A DNA stretch of 64,000 nucleotides from Methanosarcina sp. MSH10X1 (GTDB lineage Archaea > Halobacteriota > Methanosarcinia > Methanosarcinales > Methanosarcinaceae). Shown piece after piece: positions 16,497-19,360 of this stretch (positions within the stretch are counted from its first letter, which is position 1; each line of letters begins with the position of its first letter). The notes under the pieces were generated by a model that had not been told where the DNA came from, did not search any database, and worked only from the letters and a program-made list of their open reading frames with translations. The stretch spans positions 124,001 through 188,000 of the forward strand of contig NZ_SCHL01000005.1 in assembly GCF_004099695.1 (NCBI RefSeq). The letters run 5' to 3'. The position numbers and the translations under genes are program-made.

Positions 16497-17189
16497 ATGA
16501 GCAGAAAAAGAATGAATTTAAAATTATATATAATTTGCGTATTGTTACTTTTGTTTGCTGCACCAGCTTCTGCGGATCCAGATGCTATGTTAGATAGAAG
16601 CCGAACCCAATTTGGAGATCTTTCAACGTCTTCAATTAATTACATCAATGCAAGATGTAATGAAGTTAGAAATGATCTTATTTTAATTCCTGATATAACT
16701 ATAATTGCAGATTATACCTACGGAACTGCGAGTGATCAAGGTTTTATAAACGGTATTAATTCACTTGATGATGCAACTGATGAGAATGTTGTTTTAATCC
16801 ATACTCATGGTGGAACATCTCTTCTTTCATCTTTTTTAAAATTCAAAGATGAAAGCTGTCTATATAGTTTGGACGTGAACAGTTGGATGGACGAAAGAGA
16901 CGGAGGGTTCATTTTTGCAGGTGCATGTGAATCTGCAAAATACACAGATTTAGGAAACGCGTTTATTAACAACGGTTTTGATACCTACTTTGGGTATAAA
17001 GTCAGTGTTAACACCTTACATAATGCCCGCTTCTATTCTGCATTATTTGATGTGGCTACTTTCACCGATGTCACTGTTTCTGAAGCAGCCAGATATGCAG
17101 CAGACGAAGTAAAAGAGGAGTTTGGAGATGCAACAGACGTTGGCAATAATCTGTTTATAGGAAACTCAAACTTGTGTTTAAGAACTTAA
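16497..17189 (+). CDS. secreted caspase-fold (clan CD, C25/CHAT-like) cysteine peptidase-like protein
   Basis: A 230-residue protein with a signal peptide (RKRMNLKLYIICVLLLLF, cleavage after about residue 26, APASA|DP). The body has the landmarks of a caspase/gingipain-type fold: strand VVLIHTHGG with His102 and His104 followed by Gly-Gly, then strand FIFAGACESA with Cys144, then the later helix-strand pattern GFDTYFGYK and FTDVTVSEAARYA, which in CHAT and related peptidases closes the fold. A His-Gly and Ala-Cys dyad in this spacing is the usual clan CD active site. The gene is AT-rich and sits downstream of a gene graveyard. Thirteen bases separate its stop from the next ATG region, so it is cotranscribed with the PepSY-like gene. 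Peptidase activity is inferred; I do not know of a named family. Confidence 0.6.
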   Translation: MSRKRMNLKLYIICVLLLLFAAPASADPDAMLDRSRTQFGDLSTSSINYINARCNEVRNDLILIPDITIIADYTYGTASDQGFINGINSLDDATDENVVLIHTHGGTSLLSSFLKFKDESCLYSLDVNSWMDERDGGFIFAGACESAKYTDLGNAFINNGFDTYFGYKVSVNTLHNARFYSALFDVATFTDVTVSEAARYAADEVKEEFGDATDVGNNLFIGNSNLCLRT

Positions 17190-17202
17190 GGGGGTGAAGA
17201 TT

Positions 17203-18117
17203 ATGAAACTTAAGCTAATTTGTATATTAGGTTTGATACTATCGTGTGCAATATTTGTGGCTTTTGCTTCTGATGAGGGAGGAATAATCTTTACGAAAGA
17301 AGACGTAAAGCAAACAAAATACCTTGATCCGTCAACTGCAGACGTAAATATTAGTTTTGAGGATGCAAAAAACAAGCTAATCTCAGAAAATCCGGAAGTA
17401 ATCAATGAATCTATCCATGGAGAATTGATTGATGATGAAAATTTCGGGATAATCTGGCGAGTAAGCTCAAAAACAACTAATGGAAAAAGCATCTTTGCAG
17501 GAATAAATGCCTCTAATGGAGAGCAACTTTTTGTATACGATGGATCAAAGAATGTACAGGGCAGAGACAGTATAAGCAAAGATGATGCTTTGATAATAGC
17601 AGAAAAATATATTCAATCCAAAGTTTCATTTGAAAAAATTAGTGAAATTAAACTTGAATCAGTCAATTATATAGAACCTCCTGCGGATGATCTACCAGGA
17701 AATTATCATGTAAGTTACGCAAGAATTATCAGGGGAATACCTTCTCTTTCCGATGGAATACTGCTTGATGTTAATGCAGAAACAGGCGAAGTTTCAAGCT
17801 ATCGCAAAAGATGGTCTATGTCTGAGGAAGAGATAGCACTCATTGATACTGAACCAAGCATTACGGATGAAAAAGCAGTTGAGATTCTCAGAGAATACAT
17901 GAGTAACGAACCTTCTATAGGAGAAGAAAAAGCAAGTACTGTAAAAGTTATTTCGTCGAACCTTGTCTGGAAAGAGGACGATGAAGATAAAACTCGTCTG
18001 GCATGGTGGATCCGATTCATGGATTCAAGTTTTGCAAAGGACGATGACTATCCTGCTTCAGTATGGATTGACGCACATTCAGGAGAAATGTTGCTGTTTG
18101 ATTATTATAGAGATTAA
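17203..18117 (+). CDS. secreted PepSY/YcdB-like repeat protein
   Basis: A 304-residue exported protein. GGGGGTGA lies just upstream of ATG 17203, which I prefer to the GTG at 17194. The signal sequence MKLKLICILGLILSCAIFVA contains ILSC, which could be a lipobox, or it may be cut after FAS. The mature part contains about three repeats of the PepSY/YcdB kind: a helix (SFEDAKNKLISENP; SKDDALIIAEKYIQSK; TDEKAVEILREYMSN) followed by strands, each ending near a GEQLFVYD, TGEVSSYRKRW or SGEMLLFDYY motif. Proteins of this sort act as peptidase propeptides or inhibitors. Encoded directly after a caspase-like protein, it may chaperone or restrain it. That link is inference. Confidence 0.6.
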   Translation: MKLKLICILGLILSCAIFVAFASDEGGIIFTKEDVKQTKYLDPSTADVNISFEDAKNKLISENPEVINESIHGELIDDENFGIIWRVSSKTTNGKSIFAGINASNGEQLFVYDGSKNVQGRDSISKDDALIIAEKYIQSKVSFEKISEIKLESVNYIEPPADDLPGNYHVSYARIIRGIPSLSDGILLDVNAETGEVSSYRKRWSMSEEEIALIDTEPSITDEKAVEILREYMSNEPSIGEEKASTVKVISSNLVWKEDDEDKTRLAWWIRFMDSSFAKDDDYPASVWIDAHSGEMLLFDYYRD

Positions 18118-18158: not shown

Positions 18159-18195
18159 AGTACGTGATTATTTATTTTTCACGTACTCTCTCTTT
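18159..18195 (+). terminator. terminator after the caspase-like/PepSY pair
   Basis: A perfect nine-base stem (AGTACGTGA with TCACGTACT) around an eleven-base AT loop is followed by a pyrimidine-rich run with several T tracts, about 40 bases past the PepSY-like stop. Confidence 0.6.
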
Positions 18196-19360
18196 CTTTT
18201 TCCCATAACTAAGATTATCCCGCTGATAATTGTTATCCGTTCATCAACTGAGAATATCTGGCCTCCACAATCTTCCTCTTTTTAACTTCTCCCTTTCATA
18301 TCCTGTTTCATTTTGTGCATCTATCGTTTATGATCAGATGTCTTATTAGTGTTGCAATTTTTCCTTGCCAAGACAATAATTGCCCTTGCATGTCCGATAG
18401 TCTTCTTTTTTCTGTTAAAAAAACCCTTTTTTTAAACTCTTAACTTATTGTGTAAAAACTTACTCTTTTTTAGCTACTTAGGGTTCTTGAATATGCGTAT
18501 TCAATAATTCTTAAGCTTTTTATGTGGGGTCATGGAATTGAGAAACTACATTATCATCAATGGTTACCGGGGAAGTTTTCCATCCCCGCAGCAAGCTAGC
18601 GGAGTATTCGACTGAAATAAAATAGAAATAATCTTTTTTCAAAAGAATATATAACTTGTTTGATTTGCTTAGGAATTTTTGAGGTAATCTGACCTAGGAT
18701 ATTTTTTCCAAAGAATTATCTATCAAATCAAATACATAGGTTATGTTTAAACATGAGTATTTTTGAAGATTGAGGAAAGGAATAAACTAGAAAGAGCAAA
18801 AAAAAGGTGAAATTGCACAGGTTTTAACTTAAAACCTGTACATCGTTATTTTTTAGAGGGAAATTTCTGTTATTAGCTTCTGCTCAAACTAAATTATTTA
18901 GGGTTATTATTTCCTTTAACGGAATTTTTCTTTCTCCATGTATCTTTTTTCAAGGATTTTACTTCTTTCTCTCTCTTTTCCTCTTTTCTTGAGTTTTTAT
19001 TTAATTTCAAACTTCCATTGCAATAAATAAACATTTATTCCTAATTTGACAGATTCTGTTAATTAATACAATATATTCTTACAAAAAACACATTTCATTG
19101 ACACATTCCTTGTGGTAAAATGAAATATGCCAAAAATCAATAAACATGCCAAAAATCAATAAACACAAGAGATAAATTTAAATTTTATGGAGAAAACAGA
19201 AGCTTAAGTACATTTATACACTATAAAATATATGTTTCTGTCAAATTAAGGATTTATTATTGTTAACGGTCTCAAAGCCAGAAGAGGCAAAATATAGATA
19301 AATAAACGAGACATGGTATAAAATGAGTAATGTGTTTGAGTGAAACTCAATGGTAAGATA
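18196..19360. other. AT-rich intergenic region with small repeats
   Basis: No gene is supported here. It holds a degenerate hairpin near 18583 (CCCCGCAGCAAGCTAGCGG), which looks like sequence found beside archaeal insertion elements, a separate perfect hairpin at 18817, and a 19-base direct repeat (ATGCCAAAAATCAATAAAC) at 19127-19164. Confidence 0.45.
18817..18846. terminator. perfect hairpin followed by T-run
   Basis: Ten-base arms (ACAGGTTTTA and TAAAACCTGT) flank a three-base loop; a T-rich stretch (TTATTTTTTAG) follows within a few bases. Without an upstream gene it might end a small transcript or be an insertion-element remnant. Confidence 0.4.

Follow-up and report, generated by a model that had tools for sequence, protein, structure and literature searches.

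Two adjacent genes in a Methanosarcina genome probably encode a secreted caspase-type protease and a PepSY propeptide that acts in trans to fold and restrain it—a reading to which we assign a probability of roughly 60%. The pair lies in a 64,000-nucleotide stretch of contig NZ_SCHL01000005.1 from Methanosarcina sp. MSH10X1, which is referred to here, over its whole length, as the window. The features of the locus, in window coordinates, are the following:

16497–17189, + strand: gene 1, putative secreted caspase-fold (clan CD, C25/CHAT-like) cysteine peptidase, 230 aa (profiles, invariant His and Cys)
16497–16574, + strand: signal-peptide-like N-terminus of gene 1, residues 1–26, ending in ...ASA before DPDA (sequence and hydrophobic peak)
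16806–16808, + strand: codon of His104, proposed catalytic His of HTHGG (invariant in 27/27 paired homologues)
16926–16928, + strand: codon of Cys144, proposed nucleophile of GAC (invariant in 27/27 paired homologues)
17190–17202, + strand: 13-base spacer with the ribosome-binding-like GGGGGTGA ahead of the ATG at 17203
17203–18117, + strand: gene 2, putative secreted protein of three PepSY/YcdB units, 304 aa (Pfam, profile, and AF2 model)
18159–18205, + strand: hairpin AGTACGTGA / TCACGTACT and T-rich tail, candidate shared terminator (folding energy)

Both open reading frames are intact and on the same strand, and the coordinates, the 13-base gap, and the 204-residue mature product of gene 1 agree with the initial annotation; gene 2 has an alternative GTG start at 17194. 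The signal sequences proposed for the two proteins correspond to strongly hydrophobic, signal-peptide-like N-termini (best 12-residue mean hydropathy of 3.17 at residue 10 in gene 1 and 2.92 at residue 8 in gene 2). The proposed shared terminator likewise has a counterpart in a hairpin at 18159–18187, 3' of gene 2, with a T-rich tail (−13.3 kcal/mol, z = −5.2). A standard terminator scan returned no site on the + strand, including between the two genes, and probably missed this hairpin because its loop is 11 nt long.

Is the pair a mobile element? It had been described as AT-rich, which is true locally: GC content is 26–37% across the pair and its near flanks, versus 41–51% in most windows further out. 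The mobility that the initial annotation had suggested is not supported. The pair sits behind an RPA operon, a site shared among five Methanosarcina genomes (the window genome, G003, G004, G026, and one of the G028 loci), the stretch upstream of it is single-copy in the window genome, and no relatives were found among phages, plasmids, or viral contigs. We therefore rejected a mobile origin of the window copy, given the conserved chromosomal site and the single-copy upstream stretch. In G005, G006, G014, G016, and G029, the pair site lies between two short-chain-dehydrogenase-like genes.

Does gene 1 belong among the caspase-fold peptidases? It contains two clan CD motifs, NVVLIHTHGG and GGFIFAGAC, in which His-Gly and Ala-Cys each follow a hydrophobic strand. 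The His-His-Gly-Gly first reported is in fact His-Thr-His-Gly-Gly (H102-T-H104-G-G). The second His of this motif is the conserved one: H102 is replaced by Glu in one intact homologue, and the conserved residues are H104 and C144, 40 residues apart. A permissive His/Cys pattern also matched another open reading frame within the window, and the loose motif alone would be weak evidence; it gains significance because both residues are conserved across homologues, being invariant in the alignment of all 27 paired sequences.

Profile comparisons extend this picture. Gene 1 itself scored 14.1 bits against Pfam Peptidase_C25 (PF01364; E = 0.027), below the curated cut-off of 23, and its sequence alone had no relevant match in the PDB. 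Relatives in other archaeal families exceed that cut-off (31.5 bits for L151, which is 51% identical; 27.9 for L130; 23.8 for L129), and CHAT is the second-ranked Pfam match for L129 and L130. Because these relatives pass and gene 1 does not, we regard it as a relative of C25 and do not file it as C25. An alignment of Methanosarcinaceae gene 1 proteins matched one of L130, L129, and L121 at an hhalign probability of 93.5 (E = 2.3e-7) over 150 columns that include both catalytic motifs, and a 15-sequence gene 1 profile matched 8tl0, a CHAT protease of known structure, in a region spanning the His and the Cys (E = 2.7e-5). These bridges to C25, CHAT, and 8tl0 support the caspase fold (clan CD) originally claimed for the first protein. 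The assignment is a profile-based one, since an AF2 model of gene 1 built from five sequences reached a pLDDT of 28.7. Judging from the invariant residues, we infer that gene 1 is a peptidase acting through Cys144 in a dyad with His104.

For gene 2, the PepSY/YcdB-like character first claimed is supported by sequence and by structure prediction. The protein passes the Pfam cut-offs for PepSY (PF03413; 27.4 versus 24 bits) and DUF4901/YcdB (PF16244; 41.7 versus 27 bits), and its profile matches YpeB (5boi; E = 1.7e-6). An AF2 model, of moderate confidence given its pLDDT of 68.8 and pTM of 0.40, has three helix-plus-four-strand units, the arrangement that defines the PepSY fold. Its best match in the PDB is YpeB (5boi; E = 4.6e-9), and it also matches the propeptides of vibriolysin (3nqz) and fungalysin (4k90) at E = 1e-4 to 9e-4, with Z scores of 8.9–9.8 and rmsd of 4.7–6.1 over 147–154 residues across the three. 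Furthermore, the sequence of gene 2 matches the propeptide region of an M4-like peptidase encoded in its own Methanosarcina genome (E = 2.6e-6). The evidence thus supports gene 2 as a predicted propeptide-like protein of three PepSY/YcdB units. In M4 peptidases, propeptides of the PepSY fold both assist folding and inhibit the enzyme.

How often do the two genes occur together? A search for gene 1 homologues across the Methanosarcinaceae, its order, its class, a second class, and a phylum sample yielded 56 non-redundant loci in eleven archaeal families, many of them closely related to each other; a gene 1 scan of genome contigs gave Methanosarcina matches only. At 54 of the 56 loci, gene 1 has gene 2 as its same-strand neighbor—a count that takes in one locus cut by a contig end (L197), where gene 2 was recognised by eye—and gene 2 lies downstream, usually after a gap of 3–24 nt. 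The two exceptions with an intact gene 1 are L152 and L205, in the latter of which a transposase-like gene abuts gene 1. Far from never occurring with gene 2, then, gene 1 almost always does, and it is strongly supported that the pairing is not a local accident. In three of the 54 (L206, L207, and L210, with lengths of 972, 1,204, and 532 aa), the caspase and PepSY domains are fused in the same order within one open reading frame. A weaker relative outside the 56, L215 (447 aa), is a single open reading frame with PepSY ahead of the caspase domain, an order that is zymogen-like. No gene 2 was recognised beside the weak, mostly large multidomain gene 1 relatives L216–L220.

The phylogenies of the two genes are also congruent (r = 0.93, a value reached in 0 of 2,000 shuffles), with shared species history accounting for part of the correlation. 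In both trees, G545, G601, and G425 group with Methanosarcinaceae, whereas G365, which belongs to the same genus as G545, groups with G239. This agreement between the trees suggests that the pair has been inherited and transferred as one unit. A full-text search of the open-licence literature for PepSY, caspase, and archaea together returned no paper, and we found no description of the pair there.

Restraint by a propeptide-type PepSY protein has precedents in metallopeptidases and in SleB. In Bacillus, the exported hydrolase SleB is followed by its exported PepSY partner YpeB, the structural match of gene 2, in one operon, an arrangement like that of the present pair if gene 1 is indeed a hydrolase. 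YpeB stabilises SleB and can inhibit it in vitro, and the two share a conserved operon (PMC6660665). However, the cortex lytic enzyme SleB bears no relationship to the caspase-fold gene 1, and YpeB, a spore protein, has a separate N-terminal region. Because the putative hydrolase here is C25/CHAT-related and not a SleB relative, the pair would work like SleB–YpeB without being a member of that system. The M4/M36 propeptides (vibriolysin and fungalysin) have the same fold as gene 2 but are covalent N-terminal parts of zinc peptidases, whereas gene 2 is separate and stands beside a predicted cysteine peptidase. Gene 1 resembles C25 proteases (gingipains) and CHAT proteases in profile and in its His–Cys dyad, and gingipains are also secreted. 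Unlike gingipains, it lacks a gingipain-type prodomain as well as Ig-like and type IX secretion domains, and unlike C25 and CHAT proteases it is a stand-alone domain of about 200 residues with a trans partner. Two proteins of family f7 archaea (L088 and L089) likewise have a secreted caspase-like domain, with C13 and C14 matches above the Pfam cut-offs, but they are multidomain proteins of 620–660 aa whose N-terminal region is PepSY-like by eye only, with no Pfam match.

We propose that gene 1 would be exported as a caspase-fold cysteine endopeptidase with a His104–Cys144 dyad and that gene 2 would be exported as a free-standing propeptide-like protein that binds it. The folding of gene 1 would be assisted by gene 2, which would also keep the enzyme inactive until its own release or degradation. 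Covalent propeptides play this part in M4/M36 metallopeptidases, and YpeB plays it for SleB. The substrate would probably be an envelope or extracellular protein. Everything found is consistent with gene 2 acting as an inhibitor of gene 1.

What becomes of each gene over time? Eleven Methanosarcina loci retain an intact gene 2, but only two of them (the window and G010) an intact gene 1. Gene 1 carries a premature TGA stop in G028 and a frameshift, possibly an assembly error, in G016; it is split by a transposase insertion in G009 and reduced to a C-terminal stub in G004, G005, G006, G008, G014, and the second G028 locus. Other decayed copies are found in G128 (TAA stop), G157 (His region lost), and G390 and G603 (frames broken). 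The insertion in G009 (L055:3278–4448) is IS630-like by eye, and gene 2 is tandem-duplicated there. We rejected recoding as an explanation of the premature stop in M. spelaei, which is TGA; the stop in G128 is TAA, and neither is the pyrrolysine TAG. Altogether, a decayed gene 1 accompanies an intact gene 2 at 13 loci, while the reverse kind occurs at three (L152, L205, and G025, in which gene 1 is intact and gene 2 is interrupted near residue 235). Where gene 1 has been lost, gene 2 shows purifying selection (dN/dS of 0.28–0.45 versus the window copy). Values for gene 1 between the window and intact copies span 0.11–0.74, with the maximum against G010, which suggests relaxed constraint in that genome.

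Such repeated decay of gene 1 beside a conserved gene 2 is also what would be seen if gene 1 were a protease effector released against competitors or kin, with gene 2 protecting the producer extracellularly and persisting as orphan immunity in genomes without gene 1. Caspase-like domains have been proposed as some of the toxins of polymorphic systems (PMC3482391). Loss of the dangerous member first fits protease restraint and effector–immunity alike, however, and does not separate them. We saw no delivery apparatus, no toxin-delivery repeat domains, and no sign of rapid toxin-type diversification, and having both domains fused in a single chain fits a zymogen better than it fits a toxin with its immunity protein; we consider an effector role unlikely. 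It is similarly improbable that gene 2 mainly serves gene 1 as a steric chaperone or an aid to export, with little inhibition. The folding-aid function of PepSY propeptides and the lack of a large prodomain in gene 1 would favor such a role, as would the requirement of YpeB for SleB stability (PMC6660665), but a pure foldase would be useless in the genomes that keep gene 2 without gene 1. An envelope or sensory function of gene 2 independent of gene 1, as in other PepSY proteins, with no link between the two beyond cotranscription, would account for its paralogues without gene 1 and its conserved orphan copies, yet it is very improbable in view of the paired loci in eleven families, the fusions, and the congruent trees. 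Against trans-acting restraint of a protease, the preferred reading, stand the sub-threshold C25 score of gene 1, the three loci where gene 1 is intact and gene 2 is missing or interrupted, and the persistence of gene 2 where gene 1 has decayed; in view of the last point, gene 2 may have some further function.

In other Methanosarcinaceae, gene 2 paralogues occur near M12 reprolysin-like peptidases (L113, L115, and L117) and near a transglutaminase-like protein (L116); some of the paralogues at these four loci are longer and in tandem. A secreted serpin adjoins the gene 2 locus in two cases (L071:3387–4721 and L120:3754–5031). Together, the paralogue and serpin neighborhoods fit a general association of gene 2-type proteins with proteases. 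Three loci have a gene-1-like third gene after gene 2 (L157:5808–6539, L201:3337–3840, and L204:2019–2561, the last in minus-strand coordinates), whose product keeps the His-Gly and seemingly lacks the Cys nucleophile, giving it the look of a pseudo-protease. At L153:4858–5964, two genes upstream of the pair, is a secreted protein with a C39-like (papain-type) look.

At ten loci (L069, L070, L128, L129, L130, L151, L154, L202, L212, and L213), the pair has a membrane-anchored ArsR-like winged-helix regulator in its vicinity; this regulator was sought and not found in the window and the Methanosarcina loci. More speculatively, the pair may belong to a widespread archaeal module for extracellular proteolysis, composed of a caspase-type peptidase, a PepSY propeptide, and often this adjacent regulator, to which release of the protease at the cell surface possibly signals; decayed protease copies would then leave orphan restraints behind. 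We regard this wider scheme as less likely than not. Were a caspase-fold peptidase to have its own dedicated PepSY protein, conserved throughout methanogens and their relatives, this would add a new pairing to the known forms of protease control and would provide archaeal relatives of caspases with a concrete extracellular function open to test.
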